Positions 3,015-53,047 of a stretch of 64,000 nt of DNA are shown in pieces. Made by a program: the position numbers and the translations under genes. The stretch covers positions 62,001-126,000 of the forward strand of contig JAFDVR010000009.1 of the NCBI GenBank assembly GCA_018268855.1, given 5' to 3'. Positions within the stretch are counted from its first letter, which is position 1; each line of letters begins with the position of its first letter. The notes beneath the pieces were generated by a model, which searched no databases, was not told the DNA's origin, and saw only the letters and a program-made list of their open reading frames with translations. The DNA comes from Acidobacteriota bacterium. GTDB taxonomy: Bacteria; Acidobacteriota; Terriglobia; Terriglobales; Acidobacteriaceae.

Positions 3015-5507
3015 ATGGAACTTCGCAAATCGCTTGCCTCCGTCGTTGCCTTACTTCTGCTTGTGCCCGCGTCGATATCCATGGCGCAGGCGCCGGTATC
3101 ACCATCGCCCGCCATTGATGCACGCGCCAACGCGATGATCGCGAAGATGTCTCTTGACGATAAGCTGCGGCTCATCGGCGGTGTAGACAACTTCTATACC
3201 AAGGCAATCCCATCCATCGACCTTAAGCGTCTCAAAATGACAGACGGACCCGTGGGCACGCGTACCTTTGGCCCTTCTACTGCGTATACGGCATCTGTCG
3301 CTCTCGCAGCATCGTGGGATCCGGAACTGGCAGGGCGTGTTGGCGCTTCACTTGGCAACGATGCCAGAGCGCGTGGTGTCCACTTCCTGCTCGCTCCCGG
3401 CGTCAATATCTATCGTTCGCCGTTGAATGGCCGCAATATGGAATATCTTGGCGAAGATCCTTATCTCGCAGGACGCATTGCGATTGGCTATATCAACGGT
3501 GTGCAGAGCAAAGGAGTCTCGGCAACAATCAAGCATTTCGCAGCCAACAACTCTGAGTACGACCGTCATCGCATCAACGCTATTGTGGACGAACGTACAC
3601 TGCGCGAACTGTACCTGCGCGCTTTTGAGATGGCCATCAAGCAAGCGCATCCCGGCGCTGTGATGGATAGCTACAACCTGATCAATGGCGAGCACGCCAC
3701 GCAGAACGGACATCTGAATAACGACATTCTTAAGGGCGAGTGGAAATTCCCGAACGTTCTAATGTCTGACTGGAACGCGACTTACGACGGTGTGGCCGCC
3801 GCGAACAACGGTCTCGATCTGGAGATGCCGTTTGCCAAGATGATGACGGCGGAAACGCTGAAGGCCGCTATCAAAGACGGGCGCGTAAAAGAGAGCACTA
3901 TTGATGACAAGGTCCGTCGCATTCTGCGCACGGCCATCCAATTCGGCTGGCTCGACCGCGATCAGTATGATACGTCGATTCCGCTTTATAGTCTTGAAGG
4001 TGACAGGGTTGCACTTGACGAAGCGCGTGAAGGTATCACGCTGTTGAAGAACCAGAACAATCTACTTCCTCTCGATGCGAAGAAGATCAAGACCCTCGCG
4101 ATCATTGGACCAAACGCGCCCGCTGCCGTGGTGGGTGGAGGCGGTTCGTCAAGCACGACGCCCTTCAAGGCAGACAGCATTGTGGCAGGCTTTGCCTCCT
4201 ATCTTGGCGAGCGTGTGAAGGTGATGTACGTCTATGGACTCGACTCTATGTTTGAGATCTATGGGCTTACTGAAATTGACCAGATGAAGGTGATGCGCAA
4301 GGTAGGCAACGGCCCTGAAAAGGACATTACTGCTCGCGGTGAGCGTCACATCAATTACTGGCCGCGCTTCCCTGCGCGTAGCGCCCCGGGAGCACAATCG
4401 AAAATACCAACCACGTACCACACCACTGGCACCTACACTTCTGTGGAGGAGGGCGACTATGTTGTGGCCGGCGTGACATACGGAGGGGATCTCTATACTG
4501 TTCAAATTGATGGCAAAGAGGTACTGAAGCACGAGAAAAGCTATAACGACCGGGCAGAGACGAATGATGCCATCATTCATCTCGATGCGCACCAGACAGT
4601 AAAAGTGGACGTCAGGTATGAGACCCATTCCGATAAGCGCCAGATGTCCATTGCCATCTATAACCGCTCAGAAGAAATTCCTGCCTCATCCCGAAAGGTG
4701 ATCCGCGAAGCCGACGCTGTCCTTGTTTCGGTTGGTTTCAATCCTCAGGAAGAGGGTGAGGGCTTTGACCGCACCTATACCATGCCATTGCGACAGAACG
4801 AGCTCATCAAACAGGTCTCATCCATCAACCCCAAGACCATTGTTGCCATCAACGCTGGCGGCAGTGTGGAGACAGAGCCGTGGGTCGCAGGTGTTCCCGC
4901 GCTGTTGCATACCTACTATCTCGGCCAGGAGGGTTCCCGTGCTCTGGCGGAGATCGTCTTTGGTGAACGTTCCCCTGAGGGCCATCTACCCTTCTCGTGG
5001 GAGCGTACATTGGCCCAGAATCCTGCCAGCGCTCACTATGAGGAGGAAAATGGCACGCGCGACTCGCACTACGCCGAAGGTCTCTTCCTGGGTTATCGCT
5101 ACTACACGTCCATGAAGCAGCAGCCGCTCTTTCCATTCGGATTCGGTATGTCTTATACCAATTTTGCCATTAGCAACCTCAAGACGAAGCGTAACTCTGG
5201 TGATGATGTGGAAGTGAGCTTCGATGTGAAGAATATAGGCTCACGTGAGGGCGCAACCGTAGCTCAGGTTTACGTTGGCGATCCTTCTGCTAAGGTAAAA
5301 CGCCCTGTGATGGAACTGAAGCAGTTCAGCAAAGTGCGCCTCAAAGCTGGCGAGAAGCAGCATGTCGTACTTCATCTAGATCGCCGTGCCTTTGAGTATT
5401 ACGATGTGGATGGCAAGCAATGGAAGCTCGATCCTGGCCAATTCACTATCAATGTTGGCCAATCCTCCGAAAAAATCGATGCTTCTCAGACTTTTGAGAT
5501 GATGTAA
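3015..5507 (+). CDS. Secreted GH3 beta-glycosidase with PA14 insertion
   Basis: 830 residues with a Sec-type signal peptide (about 1-24, ending SMAQA). Order: GH3 N-terminal TIM barrel (about 30-310; KHFA at 173-176; the predicted nucleophile Asp252 in the MSDWNATYDG segment), GH3 C-terminal sandwich interrupted by a PA14-type carbohydrate-binding insertion (about 400-550), the acid/base loop EEGEGFDR (about 579-586), and a C-terminal fibronectin-III-like domain (about 730-825). Length and order fit beta-glucosidase/beta-xylosidase enzymes. The exact specificity (glucoside, xyloside or arabinoside) cannot be read from sequence. An intrinsic terminator follows 19 bp after the stop. Confidence 0.93.
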   Translation: MELRKSLASVVALLLLVPASISMAQAPVSPSPAIDARANAMIAKMSLDDKLRLIGGVDNFYTKAIPSIDLKRLKMTDGPVGTRTFGPSTAYTASVALAASWDPELAGRVGASLGNDARARGVHFLLAPGVNIYRSPLNGRNMEYLGEDPYLAGRIAIGYINGVQSKGVSATIKHFAANNSEYDRHRINAIVDERTLRELYLRAFEMAIKQAHPGAVMDSYNLINGEHATQNGHLNNDILKGEWKFPNVLMSDWNATYDGVAAANNGLDLEMPFAKMMTAETLKAAIKDGRVKESTIDDKVRRILRTAIQFGWLDRDQYDTSIPLYSLEGDRVALDEAREGITLLKNQNNLLPLDAKKIKTLAIIGPNAPAAVVGGGGSSSTTPFKADSIVAGFASYLGERVKVMYVYGLDSMFEIYGLTEIDQMKVMRKVGNGPEKDITARGERHINYWPRFPARSAPGAQSKIPTTYHTTGTYTSVEEGDYVVAGVTYGGDLYTVQIDGKEVLKHEKSYNDRAETNDAIIHLDAHQTVKVDVRYETHSDKRQMSIAIYNRSEEIPASSRKVIREADAVLVSVGFNPQEEGEGFDRTYTMPLRQNELIKQVSSINPKTIVAINAGGSVETEPWVAGVPALLHTYYLGQEGSRALAEIVFGERSPEGHLPFSWERTLAQNPASAHYEEENGTRDSHYAEGLFLGYRYYTSMKQQPLFPFGFGMSYTNFAISNLKTKRNSGDDVEVSFDVKNIGSREGATVAQVYVGDPSAKVKRPVMELKQFSKVRLKAGEKQHVVLHLDRRAFEYYDVDGKQWKLDPGQFTINVGQSSEKIDASQTFEMM

Positions 5508-45201: not shown

Positions 45202-46554
45202 TTACAGGCCAAGGATCCCGCAGGGGCCGGACAACTGCGACGTACCATCGTCCACCGCAGGGTAGAAGTTCCATCCAAAGACGTTCCCGGACTCAGGCGA
45301 CTGAACGTACGTGCTCGCTTCCATATCGGTGCCGGCGAAGTATCCTTGTTTTACCTGTGTGGCGGTAAGGGGATACATAACCTGGTGTGTGTATTGGGTC
45401 TGGTTATTGGCGAAGGAATTGTTTCGAGGATCGCATGGACCTATACCGCCGATTTTGAAGTTCCTGGTCACAGAGCCATTGATGTGAAGGGCCTTCCACC
45501 GGTTCTGGTACATGGCATTCCCATACATCGTGCACGTATCCATAACGTTGGTGGATCCTGAACTTAGGTATAGTGCAGAGTAGTTTCCGGTGAACACACA
45601 ATTGGTAATGTTGATGTTTCGGATCTGACCGGTCTTACCGGGGTTCAGTTCCACGCCATTGCCTTGGTTCGTATCGAAGAGGCAGCGATCGATAAAGACA
45701 TTGCTGACCGTGCCTTCGATATCAAGACCATCCGCAGGAGCCGTTCCATGCGTCCAACTGAACTCGGAGTCCCACAGGTAGACGCCATTTCCTTCCGTGA
45801 GGCTGACGCCCTGGCGGCGATTGCCGATGCAGCGTGTCTTCCAGAGAACGATGTCCGTGGGAACAACCAACGGTGATCCTCCCTGAGCGATGGTGATACC
45901 GTCTCCCTCAAAATTTGAAACCAATATGTTGCGGATGGTGATTGCCGTGGAACCAGAAAGTGAAATGCCGAACCCCCACTCATCCGTGCCTTTGCCGGAA
46001 TTCGTATGGTTGAAGCGCTCTCCAAGGATCGCGCCGCCGGCAATTTCAACGTCGTGAACGTTCTGGAGCAGGAACATGTATGCGCGTGGAACATTGTTTG
46101 CCATGGCTTGGAGCTGCACGCCGGGCTCAAGTTGCAGCAGCACGTTCGAACGGAGATTGAGAGCGTAGTATGCCTTCTTCCCTGTGGGCTGCTGGTTTGC
46201 CATCAGGTTCATCATGTATACCGACTCGTTTATTCCGCCCGTCCGGTGGTATTTGATCAGGACAGTTCCACCGTCTTCCGGCAATGCATCAATGGCTGCC
46301 TGGATCACTGCAGAGCAGTCGGAGACGCCATCGGTCGGTGGATCGACAGGGATGACTGTAGTGCCACGCTGCCGGACAGGCAATTTTCTGTTCGGAATAT
46401 GTGCAGGTGGGCTCGGAAGTTCGATGTGGAAGTCCACTCCCATCGGGTTAGGCGACGATTGTGCCGCAGCCGGTACCGCAGCTGCTAAAGGCAGCGTAAA
46501 AGCTGCAGATCCGACTTGTAGAAACTTTCTGCGTGAGACGTCCAATTTGCTCAT
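45202..46554 (-). CDS. Tat-exported right-handed parallel beta-helix protein
   Basis: 450 residues starting MSKLDVSRRKFLQVG, a twin-arginine signal (cleaved about residue 31). GGAGGA lies 7 bp before the ATG. The body is a pectate-lyase-3-like beta-helix with PbH1 repeats: DCSAVIQAAI near 79, GGTVLI near 94, VLLQLEPGVQLQA near 134, GDGITI, GNRRQGVSLTEGNG, GTAPADGLDIEG, then GNGVEL. The DGLDIE element corresponds to the DGIDIEP motif of its paralogues. It is the most diverged of the array. Family enzymes include lyases, hydrolases and epimerases of polysaccharides; the activity here is unknown. It is preceded by paired operator sites at 46699 and 46850. Confidence 0.88.
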   Translation of the reverse strand: MSKLDVSRRKFLQVGSAAFTLPLAAAVPAAAQSSPNPMGVDFHIELPSPPAHIPNRKLPVRQRGTTVIPVDPPTDGVSDCSAVIQAAIDALPEDGGTVLIKYHRTGGINESVYMMNLMANQQPTGKKAYYALNLRSNVLLQLEPGVQLQAMANNVPRAYMFLLQNVHDVEIAGGAILGERFNHTNSGKGTDEWGFGISLSGSTAITIRNILVSNFEGDGITIAQGGSPLVVPTDIVLWKTRCIGNRRQGVSLTEGNGVYLWDSEFSWTHGTAPADGLDIEGTVSNVFIDRCLFDTNQGNGVELNPGKTGQIRNINITNCVFTGNYSALYLSSGSTNVMDTCTMYGNAMYQNRWKALHINGSVTRNFKIGGIGPCDPRNNSFANNQTQYTHQVMYPLTATQVKQGYFAGTDMEASTYVQSPESGNVFGWNFYPAVDDGTSQLSGPCGILGL

Positions 46555-46698: not shown

Positions 46699-46712
46699 TG
46701 GCATCGTTGCCA
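46699..46712. promoter_or_regulatory. Operator-like palindrome, site 1 of the 45.2-kb beta-helix gene
   Basis: Exact copy of the consensus TGGCATCGTTGCCA, 145 bp upstream of the start codon and just downstream of a minus-strand promoter: TTGACA at 46742-46747, an 18-bp spacer and TATCGA at 46718-46723. The central CG and flanking inverted repeat resemble LacI-family operators. Confidence 0.65.
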
Positions 46713-46717
46713 TAAAT

Positions 46718-46747
46718 TCGATACGCTGATCAGGTTGTGAATGTCAA
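46718..46747 (-). promoter_or_regulatory. Promoter of the 45.2-kb beta-helix gene
   Basis: -35 TTGACA (perfect) and -10 TATCGA with 18-bp spacing on the minus strand. The operator palindrome begins about 5 bp after the -10, so it would cover the transcription start. Confidence 0.6.
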
Positions 46748-47648
46748 GAGAAATTGACAAAGTCGTTGTCTCTTTCCAAATCGCTATTTACTATTGGAAA
46801 ATGCGTCTTTCCATAGAGGAGGACGTATGGAATCAAGTTCGTTATCCATTGATATCGTTGCCATTTTGCGGCAAATGATGTGTTACCAGTTTGAGCGCTG
46901 CTGCTAGCGTATACGTCATTGGGTGAAGAATAGTATCCGTTGTAGTTCGCTGTCAGAGTAGTGTTTGGATATTGGATCGTATGGCCAAGCACATTGTTAT
47001 TCGCGAACGAGTTCGTCCAGTTCCGTCCGCCGCCTGTGCGCCGATGAGAAATCCGCTGATGCCGCCGGATCCGACATACAGCGAAAGACCGGCCTTTCCA
47101 TTTTGGTAAATAGCATTCCCTGCAATGGATCCACCTGAGATCGAACTGCTATTACTGGTTTGGAAAGCGACTCCGTTCCATCGGTTGTAGGAAACCAGGT
47201 TGTTCGTAAGGCTTAAGGAAGATACCGTGCCGCCGCTATGCACGTTGACCTGAAGGCCGCAACCTTCGTTGCCTCTGATCATGCAGTTCTCTATGATGAT
47301 ATTGCTCATGCCGTGGCTATCTGGTTCGATATCAATTCCGTCTTCTGGCGCCGTTCCAGAGGTGTAGCTGAACTCCGAATCATAGACAGAAATATAATCG
47401 CCACCGACGAGCGACAAAGCCTGTCTGCGATTGCCGGTGCTCACTACATCGCAAAGAACAATGTCATTCGAAGTTGCGCTGCCCGTATTGCCGATGCATA
47501 TGCCATCGCCCGTGCAGTCCGCAACTACCGTGCCTCTGATGGTGACTTTTTGCACTCCAAGCAGTTGAATTCCCATGCACCACTCGTCTATGCCGCTTGC
47601 GTAGCTGGAGTAAACGTGATTTTCAAAGGTAGAGTATCGTTGCGACAT
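46744..47648 (-). pseudogene. Broken beta-helix gene (N-terminus lost, one frameshift)
   Basis: The first fragment (from 47648) aligns with the paralogues from their GERYTH position onward: DEWCMGIQLLG, CTGDGICIGN, NRRQALSL, GTAPEDGIDIEP. It lacks about 190 N-terminal residues, including the Tat signal. Near 47025-47040 the frame changes by one base around a GGCGGCGG run: NWTNSFANNN and YPNTTL continue in another frame, up to about 46744. Homology fades before the stop, and the region then overlaps the promoter-proximal sequence of the next gene. It is a decayed member of the tandem array. Confidence 0.8.
46850..46863. promoter_or_regulatory. Operator-like palindrome, site 2 of the 45.2-kb beta-helix gene
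   Basis: TGATATCGTTGCCA, 12 of 14 matches to the consensus, 296 bp upstream of the start and 151 bp from site 1. It lies in the tail of the pseudogene. Confidence 0.55.
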
Positions 47649-47720
47649 TTGGTAACTAAACTTTCTCAGTACCGTTCCCGTATAAGAAGGACGATTTTGA
47701 ACCTACAATTCAGCAGCACA

Positions 47721-47763
47721 ACACGTAGAAGGGCCTTCGCTTAGCGAAGGCCCTTCTACGTGT
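47721..47763 (-). terminator. Perfect 20-bp hairpin after the 47.8-kb beta-helix gene
   Basis: Arms 47721-47740 and 47744-47763 are perfectly complementary with a 3-nt loop (TTA). It starts 22 bp after the stop codon. There is no T-run, so it may end transcription only weakly or protect the mRNA 3' end. Confidence 0.6.
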
Positions 47764-47784
47764 ATAAAGAGGACGACTGTAGGA

Positions 47785-49254
47785 TTAATGCCCTCCGCCA
47801 TGTGGGCTATGATCCTCGTGTCCATGATTGTCGTTTCCGTGATCGTCATGATCAGGCCAATGGAAGGGAGACTCATGACATCCATGGGACTCAGAGGAGA
47901 GCGGATCTGCAGGGGTGAAGTAGCTATTCCATCCGATAGTATTTACCGTTTGTGCGGTGGACGACAGGTTCATATCCGTTCCTGAAACGTACCCTTGCGT
48001 GTTCGCCTCCTTTGTATTTGGATACTCGATGTCGGTGTAGAGATTGTCGTTATCAGCGAATGAATTGCTGTATTCACTGTAAGAATGTTTTCCTCCGACG
48101 ATATAGTTAGCGGTACTTCCGCTGAGCGAAAGTCCATAATAACCATTCTGGTAGAAAGCGTTGCCGTAAACCGTCCCTGTATCGATGATACCGGCGATGT
48201 TATTAACCTTGCCGCTCTGTGCGACGAAGCCGCCATAGTAGTTATAGGAAATAAGACAGTTCGTGATATTTACATTCGTCACATTGGTTCCACGAGCGTT
48301 GATCTGAATACCGTCACCTGCATTGCCCTTGATGATGCAATTGTCGATTGTGAGATTATTCACGTGGGCTGATCCCTGCGGCTCGATATCAATGCCGTCC
48401 ATGGGGGCCGTTCCAGAGGTATAGCTGAACTCGGAGTCGTAGACCGAGATATTATCGCCTTGCGTGATGCTCAAGGCCTGCCTGCGATTTCCTGTCGAGA
48501 CAACATCGCAGAGAACGAGATCGGAGGTGCCTACGCCTCCTATGTTTCCAACGCAAATACCATCGCCAGTGCAGTCGGATATTTGCGTTCCCCGGATGGT
48601 CATGGCACTCACACCGAGAAGTTGCATACCGTGCCACCACTCATCCGTCTTTGTCTTACGGGTGGAATAGATATGGGTGTAACGTTCACCCACAAACCAG
48701 CCGTTACATATCTCAACATCGTGGACTTGTTTGCCATACACGATGTACGAGCGCTCCCAGAGCTTAGAAGAATCGTTCGGCAAAGCCTGTAACTTCACAC
48801 CAGGTTTGAACTGGAGGCGAACATTCGATTGCAGCAGGATTCCCCAGTAGGCGCTGCCGTCTGTATTGGCCTGCGTATCTACTCTGTACACGCACATGTT
48901 TCCGCCTGTATTGCGCCAGGGAATAATGACTGTCCCGCCGCCGTTGGCGACTACATTGCTAATGGCATCGTTGATGAGTTGCGAACAATCTGTCCCGTCG
49001 ATAGGCATACCAGGGATTTTGTACGTGTAAGTTCCGATCGCCCGCGTAGGCAAGGGTCGGTTAGGGATTCTCTGACGGAAGCTCTGCGGGCGGCAGTTGG
49101 GTTCGTGGTGGTCGAAAGGGCCTCCTCGACCTGGAAAACCCTGCCAACCGTTTTCTGCTTTGGCTATTACAGGCGATGTGGCTATCGCCGCCATTGGTAA
49201 GGTTAGCGCGGCACCACTCACGAATTTGCGTCGAGATACTTCTATTTTGCTCAA
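47785..49254 (-). CDS. Tat-exported beta-helix protein with His-rich C-terminal tail
   Basis: 489 residues. The start is TTG at 49254: GGAGAA lies 6 bp before it, and the resulting MSKIEVSRRKF matches the paralogues; a TTG at 49266 is less well placed. Tat signal about 1-32. PbH1 beta-helix: DCSQLINDAI near 89, GGTVIIPW near 106, NVRLQFKPGVKLQA near 143, GERYTH at 189-194, CTGDGICVGN, GNRRQALSI, GTAPMDGIDIEPQG. The last 37 residues (about 453-489) carry 10 His and several Asp, absent from the other members, a likely metal-binding tail. It has paired operators at 49407 and 49554. Confidence 0.9.
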   Translation of the reverse strand: MSKIEVSRRKFVSGAALTLPMAAIATSPVIAKAENGWQGFPGRGGPFDHHEPNCRPQSFRQRIPNRPLPTRAIGTYTYKIPGMPIDGTDCSQLINDAISNVVANGGGTVIIPWRNTGGNMCVYRVDTQANTDGSAYWGILLQSNVRLQFKPGVKLQALPNDSSKLWERSYIVYGKQVHDVEICNGWFVGERYTHIYSTRKTKTDEWWHGMQLLGVSAMTIRGTQISDCTGDGICVGNIGGVGTSDLVLCDVVSTGNRRQALSITQGDNISVYDSEFSYTSGTAPMDGIDIEPQGSAHVNNLTIDNCIIKGNAGDGIQINARGTNVTNVNITNCLISYNYYGGFVAQSGKVNNIAGIIDTGTVYGNAFYQNGYYGLSLSGSTANYIVGGKHSYSEYSNSFADNDNLYTDIEYPNTKEANTQGYVSGTDMNLSSTAQTVNTIGWNSYFTPADPLSSESHGCHESPFHWPDHDDHGNDNHGHEDHSPHGGGH

Positions 49255-49406
49255 GGTGTTCTCCAAAGGAATGTTGTAGTAAAGATTGAGTTCTGTTCCT
49301 GTGTCGCAGAACAGGGTTGATTCACGATCAGGCCTGCTTGCGGCAGGATGAAATTGTTACGGCACCTCTTGAAAACGACGGACTTTAGATTGGGCCCGTG
49401 CGCTTG

Positions 49407-49420
49407 TGGCATCGTTGCCA
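49407..49420. promoter_or_regulatory. Operator-like palindrome, site 1 of the 47.8-kb beta-helix gene
   Basis: Exact TGGCATCGTTGCCA, 153 bp upstream of the start codon, 4 bp after a TATCTA -10 box. Confidence 0.65.
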
Positions 49421-49424
49421 TATA

Positions 49425-49454
49425 TAGATATGCTGCTTCATCTGGAGCTGTCAA
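49425..49454 (-). promoter_or_regulatory. Promoter of the 47.8-kb beta-helix gene
   Basis: -35 TTGACA (perfect, 49449-49454), 18-bp spacer, -10 TATCTA (49425-49430) on the minus strand; the same layout as at 46718-46747. Confidence 0.6.
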
Positions 49455-49553
49455 GCGAACATCTAGAGGTAAGCCAGTCCCCCAAAAAGGTTGTTATTTG
49501 GTATTCGGCGGTATTACTTACGGAAGGGCCACTGAATCGCGTCCTTAGGCTTT

Positions 49554-49567
49554 CGACATCGTTGCCA
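49554..49567. promoter_or_regulatory. Operator-like palindrome, site 2 of the 47.8-kb beta-helix gene
   Basis: CGACATCGTTGCCA, 12 of 14 matches, 300 bp upstream of the start and 147 bp from site 1. Confidence 0.55.
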
Positions 49568-49612
49568 ATTTAATTGCATTATGGCAGCGATCGTCGACTC
49601 GGATTTGCTCTG

Positions 49613-49649
49613 AAAACAGCCTGCATGAAGAATGCTTCGATGCAGGCTG
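49613..49649 (-). terminator. Intrinsic terminator of the 49.7-kb beta-helix gene
   Basis: Perfect 10-bp arms CAGCCTGCAT/ATGCAGGCTG (49618-49627, 49640-49649) with an inner GAAG/CTTC stem, followed by TTTT on the minus strand. Confidence 0.8.
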
Positions 49650-49662
49650 CTGGGATTCCAGA

Positions 49663-51042
49663 TTAGCTCGAAAAAAAATAGTTATTTTGCCAGATGTTCG
49701 CGCTCTGTGCACCAGAATCAGCGTTCATATCATCCACTCCTGCCCAGTAGCCAGAGTGCCTCGCTAGAGTTGTGTTCGGATACACAATGGTATTAGAACT
49801 CGTTCCATTGTTGGCGAAGCTATTGGTGTAAATGCCGTCCACATGTGGCGCGCCAATTGTGTAGCCAGTCACGCCTTGAACTATGGACAAACCGAAGTTC
49901 CCGTTCTGATAGAAAGCGCATCCAAAAACAGATCCACCACTGATCGTTCCCTTATACCGGTGGGCGTAAAATCCATCGAAGAAGTTATAACTGAACATAC
50001 AGTTCGTGATGTCGACATTGCTGATCGAGACATTGTCGTCATGTGTATTGCATTCGATGCCGTTGCCTTCATTGCCTTTAATAATGCAGTTGTCGATCGT
50101 AACATTTTGAACGGTTGACGAGCCTTCAGGTTCAATATCGATGCCGTTCATGGGTAGGGTTCCGTAGGTATAGCTAAATTCGGAATCATAAACATAAATT
50201 CCGTCACCCTGCGTGAGGCTCAAGCCTTGCCGGCGGTTATCGGTGCACAGCACGTCGCAAAGATAGACATTTGTCGAACCGGTGCCATTGATATTGCCAA
50301 CACAGATGCCATCTCCAGTAAAGCTTGAGAAATGAGCTCCGCGAACCGTGATGTTATTGACACCGAGAATTTGAAGACCGTGACACCACTCATCTGTGTG
50401 GTTCTTGTCTGTTGGAGAGCCGGATAAGATGTGTGTTTGCCGTTCTCCAACGTATGATCCATTTACGATTTCAATACCCTGAACTTCGTGCACGTAGAGC
50501 ATGTATGCCCGGCGGGTAGGATGTATAGGATTACCCCTGTTGATCGTCATCGATTCCAATGTGACCCCGGGTTCACATTCAAGCCTTATGTAATTGTTCT
50601 TTATCTCGATGGCACAGTATTTTGGATCACTCGGATCAGAGTTATCAAATAACACGCGCATGGGATCAATCTTGTAAATGCACCGATTTGTGCTTGAACC
50701 ATCGTTGCTGTAGGTTCCTCCGGTATGTTGCCGGGGAATGAGCACAGTTCCTCCACCGTGGTTTGTCACGGCTCTGGTGATGGCATCCTGGATCGCTTGT
50801 GAGCAATCTAGCTTCTCGGTTAAATCAAGACCGGTAACTGGTTCAACCCAAGTTGGGATGTTGACGCGGTTCGGTAGCGTTCTGTTCGGAATACTCTGTT
50901 GAATGCTCGGGTATGAGGCAGCGTTTGCCTTCATTGGCGACGTGATTTCCATCGCGGCCGGGATTGCTGCTGCGGCAACAGGTAACGTCAAGGCAGTGCG
51001 GCTAAGAAATTGCCTTCTGGATACATCATTCTTTTTAATCAT
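49663..51042 (-). CDS. Tat-exported right-handed parallel beta-helix protein
   Basis: 459 residues from ATG 51042, with AGGAGG 9 bp upstream; earlier in-frame ATGs lack a ribosome site and would bury the Tat signal MIKKNDVSRRQFLS. Beta-helix landmarks: DCSQAIQDAI, GGGTVLIPRQHTGG, EPGVTLESM, GERQTHILSG, DEWCHGLQILG, FTGDGICVGN, NRRQGLSLTQGDG, GTLPMNGIDIEPEG, GNEGNGIECN. Unlike three neighbours it lacks the paired operators; its ribosome site lies within an 8-bp inverted repeat. Substrate unknown. Confidence 0.88.
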   Translation of the reverse strand: MIKKNDVSRRQFLSRTALTLPVAAAAIPAAMEITSPMKANAASYPSIQQSIPNRTLPNRVNIPTWVEPVTGLDLTEKLDCSQAIQDAITRAVTNHGGGTVLIPRQHTGGTYSNDGSSTNRCIYKIDPMRVLFDNSDPSDPKYCAIEIKNNYIRLECEPGVTLESMTINRGNPIHPTRRAYMLYVHEVQGIEIVNGSYVGERQTHILSGSPTDKNHTDEWCHGLQILGVNNITVRGAHFSSFTGDGICVGNINGTGSTNVYLCDVLCTDNRRQGLSLTQGDGIYVYDSEFSYTYGTLPMNGIDIEPEGSSTVQNVTIDNCIIKGNEGNGIECNTHDDNVSISNVDITNCMFSYNFFDGFYAHRYKGTISGGSVFGCAFYQNGNFGLSIVQGVTGYTIGAPHVDGIYTNSFANNGTSSNTIVYPNTTLARHSGYWAGVDDMNADSGAQSANIWQNNYFFSS

Positions 51043-51050
51043 GTTTGAAG

Positions 51051-51108
51051 CCTCCTGAGGTTGTCGTGCGTTCGGGGTTGACGCCGGTGTTTTACACGTT
51101 TCAGGAGG
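51051..51108 (-). promoter_or_regulatory. Inverted repeat that could mask the ribosome site
   Basis: In the mRNA, CCUCCUGA (from 51101-51108) can pair perfectly with UCAGGAGG (from 51051-51058), the Shine-Dalgarno of the 459-residue beta-helix gene, with a 42-nt loop. Confidence 0.45.
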
Positions 51109-51167
51109 TCGAGAGCATACCTGAGAAAAGCTCATCGTGTGGTAACAAGGCAACGGACTTGCGATAA

Positions 51168-51185
51168 CTGCGCACTATTGCGCAG
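51168..51185. repeat. Small palindrome upstream of the 49.7-kb beta-helix gene
   Basis: Perfect 7-bp arms CTGCGCA/TGCGCAG with a 4-nt loop, 126 bp before the start codon; possibly an operator in this gene's promoter region. Confidence 0.4.
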
Positions 51186-51218
51186 ATGTTAAAGACAAAC
51201 TCAGCAGAAGAAAGCGCT

Positions 51219-51257
51219 CAAAAAAGACCTACGCGGAATCCAGAAATTCCGCGTAGG
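51219..51257 (-). terminator. Intrinsic terminator of the 51.3-kb beta-helix gene
   Basis: Perfect 12-bp arms (51228-51239 and 51246-51257), 6-nt loop, then TCTTTTTT on the minus strand. Confidence 0.9.
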
Positions 51258-51270
51258 CGAGGAGAGCGTT

Positions 51271-52590
51271 TTAGTGGGTGAAGTAGCTGTTGTAGTTGAT
51301 GACAGTGCCAGACGAAGGCAGTTGCGTGTTGGTGCCCACGCTGATCTGATTGCTGCCTGCTGGAACACCCTTGGTGTTCGTCTGATTGGTATGCGGATAC
51401 GTGATGTCACCGGTCGTGGTCTTATTGTTGGAGAAGTTGTTGCTCAAGCTGCCATTGGCGCTTGGATCGCCAACGGTATAGTTCGTCGTGAGGTCGCTCA
51501 GGACAAGACCATAGTTACCATTTTGGTAAAAGGCATTTCCGTGGACGCTGCCAGTGTCGACCGTTCCGCCGCTGCCCATGTGTGTCCAGAACCCGTTATA
51601 GAAATTGTTCTGAACCATGGAATTCGAGATGGTCAGGTTAGTAAGGCTTGTCCCCTGAAGGTTGCACTCAATCCCGTTACCCTGATTGCCCCGGATGACA
51701 CAGTTATCGATCACGACGTTGTTTACGCTTGCCGATCCCTGCGGCTCAATATCGATGCCGTCCATCGGAAGGGTTCCGTAGGTATTGCTGAATTCGGAAT
51801 CGTAGCAATAGATGCCATCGCCTTGGGTGATGCTGAGTGCCTGTCTCCGATTCGTTGTAAGAATGGAATTGAAGATGATAATGTCGCTGGACCCGGTGCT
51901 ACCCATATTTCCGACGCAAACTCCATCTCCGGTGCAGTCTGAAACTGTCGTTCCCATAATCGTCATACCGTCGACTCCGAGAACCTGCATTCCATGGCAC
52001 CACTCATCTGTTCCAGTGCCGAGACCGGAGTAGATGTGGGTTTGGCGTTCCCCAACAAACCACGCATTCACTATTTCGACATCATTGATTTCGTGAGCAT
52101 AGACCATGTATGCCCGTTTTGTGAGGTTCGAGGGATTTGAATTGATAGTAAGTGCCTGCAGTACAACTCCTGGCCTGAACTCAAGCCGTACGTTGGATTT
52201 CATCAGCAGTCCCCACGAGGCAGTGCCGTCGGTATAGGCCTGGCAATTCAGCCTATAGATGCAGCGGTTCTTTCCTGTTCCACCGGTGCTGGTCCGGGGG
52301 ATGATGACTGTTCCACCTTTGTTCGTTCCGGTCGTCGGCAAGCTGTTGATGGCAGCCTGGATGATTGCGGAGCAGTCGGAGGTTTCATCCGTGGGGAGAC
52401 CGGAAACGGTTACCGTGGTGGTACCGATGGCCCGTGTCGGCAATGTTCTGCTGGGAATGTCCTGCCGAACGCTGGCGGCTTCGGCGGTCATTGAGGTTAC
52501 TTCCATCGCTGCGGGTATTGCGGCGGCTACGGGTAGCGCTAATGCGGAGCGGCTAAGAAACTTCCTGCGTGATAAATCTGTCTTGCTCAT
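51271..52590 (-). CDS. Tat-exported right-handed parallel beta-helix protein
   Basis: 439 residues from ATG 52590, preceded by GGAGAA at 6 bp; the longer frame (to 52698) has no ribosome site and no homology. Tat signal MSKTDLSRRKFLSRSA (about 1-36). Body: DCSAIIQAAI, GGTVIIPRTSTGG, NVRLEFRPGVVLQA, GERQTHIYSG, DEWCHGMQVLG, CTGDGVCVGN, NRRQALSITQGDG, GTLPMDGIDIEPQG, GNQGNGIECN. It is the first gene of the tandem array in transcription order and has two operator-like sites (52730, 52882). Confidence 0.9.
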   Translation of the reverse strand: MSKTDLSRRKFLSRSALALPVAAAIPAAMEVTSMTAEAASVRQDIPSRTLPTRAIGTTTVTVSGLPTDETSDCSAIIQAAINSLPTTGTNKGGTVIIPRTSTGGTGKNRCIYRLNCQAYTDGTASWGLLMKSNVRLEFRPGVVLQALTINSNPSNLTKRAYMVYAHEINDVEIVNAWFVGERQTHIYSGLGTGTDEWCHGMQVLGVDGMTIMGTTVSDCTGDGVCVGNMGSTGSSDIIIFNSILTTNRRQALSITQGDGIYCYDSEFSNTYGTLPMDGIDIEPQGSASVNNVVIDNCVIRGNQGNGIECNLQGTSLTNLTISNSMVQNNFYNGFWTHMGSGGTVDTGSVHGNAFYQNGNYGLVLSDLTTNYTVGDPSANGSLSNNFSNNKTTTGDITYPHTNQTNTKGVPAGSNQISVGTNTQLPSSGTVINYNSYFTH

Positions 52591-52729
52591 GTGTGTTCTC
52601 CAGAATCGGTATGCGTTGAGGGAAGCGTTCTGGCTTGCTGTCCAGAACGCAGGTGAGCCTGCATGCGAAACATCAGTCTGGAACTGCAAAACGTACATTG
52701 CCTGAATAGGAGCAATCTCCGAAGACTTA

Positions 52730-52743
52730 TGGCATCGTTGCCG
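52730..52743. promoter_or_regulatory. Operator-like palindrome, site 1 of the 51.3-kb beta-helix gene
   Basis: TGGCATCGTTGCCG, 13 of 14 matches, 140 bp upstream of the start codon. Confidence 0.65.
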
Positions 52744-52881
52744 ACAGTGCTCGAAGTAATGCTTGACGGCAATCCTCCACCCCGTTCCAATCTGGAACAG
52801 AATCGAGTAGAGGGAGCCGTATTCTCAGCAAATCCTACAAATATAGCTTTGGGGTCTATTGGTAACTTTTTAGGAGCCCCG

Positions 52882-52895
52882 CGGTATCGTTGCCA
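52882..52895. promoter_or_regulatory. Operator-like palindrome, site 2 of the 51.3-kb beta-helix gene
   Basis: CGGTATCGTTGCCA, 12 of 14 matches, 292 bp upstream of the start and 152 bp from site 1. A TTGACA -35 (52921-52926, minus strand) lies 25 bp upstream, so here the promoter is at the distal site. Confidence 0.6.
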
Positions 52896-53047
52896 CATTT
52901 CATGCCTCGCCCCTCAACTTTGTCAAGAGAGAAGATTCGTCTCAAATGAATTTTTGAGTGGAAAAATCCCAAATTGCACGAATCCTCGAGCATCTATGCT
53001 CCAGGCCTGTTTAGGCTGTAATCGCCTCAACCGATAACGGTGCACGC

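Follow-up and report, generated by a model that had tools for sequence, protein, structure and literature searches.

What are the six copies of a 14-bp palindrome that lie in pairs upstream of three beta-helix genes for, and which protein binds them? The genes and the palindromes are in the window, i.e., the whole 64-kb stretch of DNA that we analyzed. We propose that the six sites are operators of a LacI-family protein that is encoded elsewhere in the same genome (C17:3589-4578), that they are part of a regulon for uronic-acid polymers (pectin-like and probably partly sulfated), and that the protein acts by repression, as set out below. We consider this proposal very probable.

The beta-helix genes

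The window encodes the following beta-helix proteins and one remnant:

45202-46554, minus strand: gene 1, predicted TAT-exported right-handed beta-helix protein (PF13229; profile match and sequence)
46852-47648, minus strand: gene 2, truncated and frameshifted beta-helix remnant without an operator of its own (sequence and matrix scan)
47785-49254, minus strand: gene 3, beta-helix protein with a His-rich C-terminal tail (TTG start assigned by homology)
49663-51042, minus strand: gene 4, beta-helix protein without an operator pair of its own (sequence and matrix scan)
51271-52590, minus strand: gene 5, beta-helix protein (model nearest to alginate C5-epimerases/lyases and polygalacturonases)

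Judging from their sequences, the beta-helix proteins carry TAT-type N-termini. Gene 2 has lost its N-terminal part, its C-terminal part is in a different frame, and its final codons are overlapped by the distal operator at 46850. The product of gene 3 has a His/Asp-rich tail (HDDHGNDNHGHEDHSPHGGGH, window 47785-47900) that is absent from its paralogues and that possibly binds metal. Strong inverted repeats that resemble terminators are found at 47728-47765 (GTAGAAGGGCCTTCGC...GCGAAGGCCCTTCTAC) and at 51225-51262 (CCTACGCGGAAT...ATTCCGCGTAGG).

NCBIfam has no name for the beta-helix protein (nor for UxaE, which is discussed below). An AlphaFold2 model of the beta-helix protein (pLDDT 80) matches the structures of AlgE4/AlgE6 and of the epimerase/lyase 8ja4 (Z of 36-37 over ~306 residues) as well as polygalacturonases (Z of 31-33; 33 for 1bhe). 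The modeled right-handed beta-helix resembles that of the alginate C5-epimerases/lyases over the catalytic module, although a shared fold does not show function. The model fits with the beta-helix proteins being putative enzymes that act on uronic-acid polymers. Distant relatives of these proteins are present in Lysobacter and Luteimonas (L040-L051), at times with several per genome, and no operator word was found with these relatives at up to 2 mismatches.

Six sites in three pairs

The 14-bp sites in the window number six, and they form three pairs upstream of genes 1, 3, and 5:

46699-46712, minus strand: proximal operator of gene 1, TGGCAACGATGCCA on the gene strand; no mismatches to the consensus; matrix score 22.8
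46850-46863, minus strand: distal operator of gene 1, TGGCAACGATATCA; 2 mismatches; score 13.4; at the 3' end of the beta-helix remnant
49407-49420, minus strand: proximal operator of gene 3, TGGCAACGATGCCA; no mismatches; from the matrix scan
49554-49567, minus strand: distal operator of gene 3, TGGCAACGATGTCG; 2 mismatches; score 15.5; directly behind a weak promoter-like TCGACG-18-TTAAAT
52730-52743, minus strand: proximal operator of gene 5, CGGCAACGATGCCA; 1 mismatch; no clear promoter alongside
52882-52895, minus strand: distal operator of gene 5, TGGCAACGATACCG; 2 mismatches; score 15.5

A sequence search confirmed the coordinates that an earlier note on this DNA had given for these sites, as well as the claimed spacing of 147-152 bp (151 bp for 46699/46850, 147 bp for 49407/49554, and 152 bp for 52730/52882). 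The distances to the start codons, which had been given as 140-153 and 292-300 bp, are also correct: they are 145 and 296 bp for gene 1 (start at 46554), 153 and 300 bp for gene 3 (start at 49254), and 140 and 292 bp for gene 5 (start at 52590). The operator is an even palindrome with a central CG (TGGCAACG/CGWTGCCA), as is expected for the LacI family. The distal copies have one degenerate half (TATCA, TGTCG, TACCG, or TACCA), whereas the other half is a constant TGGCA.

The motif is more frequent in the window than expected by chance. At up to 3 mismatches, there are 26 matches as compared to 8.65 expected (0 of 100 shuffles). We also trained a matrix on sites outside of the window only (from sulfatase promoters, the LacI locus, and relatives). 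When the 64 kb was scanned with this held-out matrix, the six sites were all within the top seven, although this check is partly circular because it was their similarity to the word in the window that first led us to the outside sites. The other one among the top seven is an exact copy of the operator word (3353-3366) that is missing from the earlier note; it is inside the coding region of a GH3 beta-glucosidase and is probably due to chance. With the weakest of the six as the bar, the background is ~0.035 sites per kb, and the chance that a promoter has a second site of this strength no more than 320 bp from its first is ~0.011, or ~1e-6 for all three promoters. (A pattern search of the whole genome at 3 mismatches was too loose, with 263 matches versus 200 in the control. 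Two strong sites, C17:300353 and C20:146308, were set aside as probable chance matches; both are inside coding regions.)

The spacers of promoters 1 and 3 can be aligned (z = 5.3), while the remaining spacers, including one from another genus, cannot. The earlier statement that the flanking DNA is otherwise dissimilar is right for most comparisons and wrong for this one. Similarly, the argument that simple duplication is insufficient to explain the sites holds between genera and only partly within the cluster.

Operators and promoters

The following promoter elements were recognized from the sequence near the operators:

46742-46747, minus strand: -35 TTGACA of the gene 1 promoter
46718-46723, minus strand: -10-like TATCGA of the gene 1 promoter, with an 18-bp spacer
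49449-49454, minus strand: -35 TTGACA of the gene 3 promoter
49425-49430, minus strand: -10-like TATCTA of the gene 3 promoter
52921-52926, minus strand: -35 TTGACA of the gene 5 promoter, at the distal operator
52897-52902, minus strand: -10-like TGAAAT of the gene 5 promoter

Each pair has one perfect TTGACA on the upstream side, at a distance of 29 bp from 46699, 28 bp from 49407, and 25 bp from 52882, in agreement with the 25-29 bp that had been reported for three sites. At gene 1, the order is TTGACA-18-TATCGA, 5 bp, and the operator; gene 3 has TTGACA-18-TATCTA, and the distal site of gene 5 has TTGACA-18-TGAAAT. A relative, G189 (described below), has the same TTGACA-18-TATCGA as gene 1, followed by 3 bp and the operator. 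Across all loci, 17 of 35 sites have a promoter-like element directly upstream, as compared to 2.5% of shifted positions. No recognizable promoter was found at the distal sites of gene 1 and G189 or at the proximal site of gene 5. Overall, the operators overlap or border the promoters of carbohydrate genes, as expected for the LacI family. Where the operator is directly behind a TTGACA-18 promoter, a repressor bound there would prevent escape or the formation of the open complex. The earlier note had likened the sites to LacI-family operators at or near the transcription start, and at the level of sequence, this reading is strongly supported by the overlap with promoters and by the link to a LacI clade.

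A candidate repressor

As had been noted, the window contains no LacI-type gene: all 12 LacI-domain matches of the genome are elsewhere. Our candidate is the LacI-family gene at C17:3589-4578 (330 amino acids, P0001), which sits behind uxaE (tagaturonate epimerase, PF16257). A perfect TGGCAACGTTGCCA adjoins the gene and is common to uxaE-lacI and a divergent GH10 gene. P0001 matches PF00356, PF00532, and PF13377 above the cut-off, i.e., it has the helix-turn-helix domain of LacI and a periplasmic-binding-like effector domain, and it has near end-to-end structure matches to CcpA, RbsR, and PurR.

For a non-circular test of the link, we considered up to 4.5 kb around 14 orthologues of the LacI gene, which were picked by protein similarity only. 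Among all 16,384 perfect 14-bp palindromes, TGGCAACGTTGCCA ranked at the top, with exact copies in 4 loci and copies with at most 1 mismatch in 9 (versus 1 and 4 for the runners-up). The site also tracks the LacI clade across genomes. The clade is present in 12 of 398 genomes of the family (E up to 1e-75), and at least 4 near-perfect sites were found in 10 of these 12 genomes but in just 29 of the 386 genomes without it (P = 1.5e-9). Likewise, the paired pattern was found in 5 of the 12 but in 3 of the 386 (P = 5e-7). The site counts for the 386 genomes were read from a table by eye, and these P values are not fully independent because the test includes related genomes. One of the 29 genomes (G116) has a weaker LacI orthologue that is just outside of our threshold. 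A phylum sample of 386 genomes gave 3 matches, all in the same family (that of Terriglobus).

Counting against the link, the LacI gene is apart from the beta-helix genes in this genome. Also, some orthologue loci (G285, G289, and the second copy in G242) have no strong site near the LacI gene, so the specificity of LacI may differ in the more distant members. On balance, the sequence comparisons point to the C17 LacI as the likely regulator of the six sites, and they strongly support the LacI reading.

A proposed regulon for uronic-acid polymers

Elsewhere in this genome, three sulfatase genes (C8:370567, C13:254762, and C7:3273) each have a strong intergenic site upstream, and within the uxaE-lacI/GH10 locus, a weaker site is located where a heparinase II/III-like gene starts. 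The LacI loci of relatives include GH28, pectinesterase, UxaE-like, and TonB-type receptor genes with upstream sites. In G189 (the MAG JAICYR01, from another genus), the LacI orthologue is 87% identical, and a single locus contains this gene, three sulfatases, a TonB-type receptor gene that has a perfect site, and an operon of four beta-helix genes. The operator pair is kept upstream of this operon, ~300 and ~170 bp before its first gene and with a spacing of 132 bp, which is the conservation in relatives' loci that the earlier note had looked to as a check. A beta-helix gene without such a LacI is present in Terriglobus albidus (G148) and in G331, and neither has a site. Paired hits in G021 and G348 are probably due to chance, as they are poor matches and are away from LacI genes. 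In an Acidobacteriota MAG, three consecutive sulfatase genes precede the beta-helix operon (L086, 7761-12471); the substrate may be a sulfated uronan.

A search of the literature brought up nothing relevant on the 14-mer or on LacI regulons of Acidobacteria, and no described LacI regulon was found for the family of Terriglobus. The regulon is new, while its kind (a LacI-family operator system) is already known. It provides a testable regulator-operator pair in this family of soil bacteria. It also ties an uncharacterized alginate-epimerase-like family and several sulfatases to the use of uronic-acid polymers, which points to their substrate.

Proposed mechanism and possible role of the second operator

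We infer the following mechanism. If no inducer is present, a dimer of the repressor would occupy the operator just behind the -10 element of the TTGACA-type promoter and would block the transcription of the secreted beta-helix enzymes. The dimer would be released by a uronate-derived sugar, probably an intermediate of the galacturonate or tagaturonate pathway. The second operator, which is usually weaker and is ~150 bp away, would tighten repression. It might do so by repressor-repressor contact over a loop (as for GalR, and with a helper or weak dimer-dimer contacts being needed), or it might serve a second promoter or form a block.

The known spacings of pairs are 132, 139, 139, 142, 147, 151, 152, 153, and 215 bp. 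Among relatives of this genome, G242 has pairs at 142 and 153 bp, G273 and G305 have pairs at 139 bp, G180 has a pair at 215 bp, and some sites are 311-454 bp apart. The clustering of the spacings is partly due to selection because the pairs in G273 and G305 came from a search that was limited to ~127-157 bp. We tested for a constant helical phase over the known spacings and did not find one: modulo 10.5, the values include 0, 4.0, 5.0, and 6.0, so the helix faces are not kept.

Looping is one of two live readings of the second operator. The claim that a spacing of about 14 turns suits DNA looping was not established by our analysis, and a ~150-bp LacI repression loop has, in our judgment, somewhat less than an even chance of being right. 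A loop would account for a second site at each of the window's three promoters and in G189, for a within-pair spacing that is held at 132-152 bp despite mostly diverged intervening DNA, and for the combination of one strong and one weaker site in each pair, as with main and auxiliary operators. There is also a precedent, as GalR, a relative of LacI, makes a 113-bp loop with HU (PMC4693257). However, the candidate repressor lacks the C-terminal tetramerization helix of E. coli LacI (in the alignment, position 307 of P0001 corresponds to position 311 of 360 in LacI, and P0001 ends at 330, like CcpA and PurR), and the sulfatase genes seem to manage with single sites. Because of the missing helix, the varying phase, and the duplicated appearance of the pairs in two relatives, looping is possible but unproven.

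Alternatively, no loop would form and each operator could serve its own promoter, the pairs being promoter-operator modules in tandem. The 139-bp pairs of G273 and G305 look from their sequences like duplicated modules, as both operators of a pair come after TTGACG-type promoter-like elements that are nearly identical. (These pairs, at L115 4072-4224 and L116 9085-9237, precede a TonB-type receptor gene, and each of their members sits behind a near-identical GGTTGACGATCGAATC... element.) In the window, the promoter of gene 5 is at the distal site, and the distal site of gene 3 has a weak promoter-like element. But the sites without a recognizable promoter (the distal sites of gene 1 and G189 and the proximal site of gene 5) do not fit, and we think that this explanation is appreciably more likely to be wrong than right.

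A more specific idea is that a LacI clade seen in just this one family of Acidobacteriota controls pectin, uronan, and sulfatase genes via operator pairs ~130-155 bp apart, with a LacI that loops without a tetramerization helix and tolerates changes of phase. We consider this rather unlikely.

Other explanations for the sites

Could a different regulator, i.e., another LacI paralogue or a protein of another family, bind the sites? With 12 LacI-domain matches in the genome and a central CG that is common among LacI-family motifs (PMC4052901), there is some room for this. However, only the C17 locus among the 12 has a strong site nearby, and the abundance of sites tracks the C17 LacI clade over 398 genomes, which makes a different regulator improbable.

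It is very improbable that the palindrome acts as a hairpin in the leader RNA (stem UGGCA/UGCCA) rather than as DNA: the proximal sites could fold into a stem of 5 bp and a loop of 4 nt, perhaps close to where the transcript begins, but we rejected this reading because one half of the distal copies no longer pairs and has no compensating change, and the same word is found before unrelated genes near one LacI clade. Chance, or inheritance without function through duplication of the cluster, is just as hard to credit: the genes are tandem paralogues, and promoters 1 and 3 have kept similar spacers, but the pair is kept in another genus where the spacer cannot be aligned, three second sites would arise by chance with a probability of ~1e-6, and sites are also present at non-homologous sulfatase genes.

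Comparison with known systems

We return to the proposed operators of the C17 LacI. From sequence features that can be checked, the system appears to be a LacI-family operator system and appears not to be a Lac-type tetrameric looping system. In a comparative genomics survey of LacI regulons, which does not name Acidobacteria in its text, even palindromes with a central CG are typical, ~20% of operons have tandem sites, the intersite distances peak at 13, 22, and 32 bp, and the usual distance from site to start is 30-140 bp (PMC4052901). Our system shares the form of the palindrome, the control of carbohydrate genes, a regulator beside a perfect site, and some tandem sites with these regulons. 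In contrast, the sites here are ~150 bp apart rather than 13, 22, or 32 bp, and their distances to the start (140 and 290 bp) are at and beyond the usual range.

Like E. coli lac with O1/O2/O3 and the tetrameric LacI, our system has a main operator at the transcription start and a distant auxiliary operator, but the candidate repressor lacks the tetramerization helix, the DNA word is different, and the spacing is out of phase. E. coli gal (OE/OI, with GalR and HU) is similar in having a repressor of the type that is shorter than LacI and two operators ~110-150 bp apart around the promoter; unlike in gal, the spacing here is not constant in phase (PMC4693257). Given the long and phase-variable spacing and a LacI without the tetramerization helix, this system would lend itself to simple tests of what a second operator contributes when there is no Lac-type tetramer.

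In other bacteria, pectin and hexuronate genes are regulated by proteins of the KdgR, UxuR, and ExuR types. Our system is like these in controlling pectin and uronate genes (GH28, pectinesterase, and UxaE), a likeness of the controlled genes alone. In G300, a gene for a GntR/FadR-like regulator (identified by eye from the N-terminal sequence) lies beside both copies of the LacI gene, with an operator upstream (L104 5594-6253 and L105 10271-10939).
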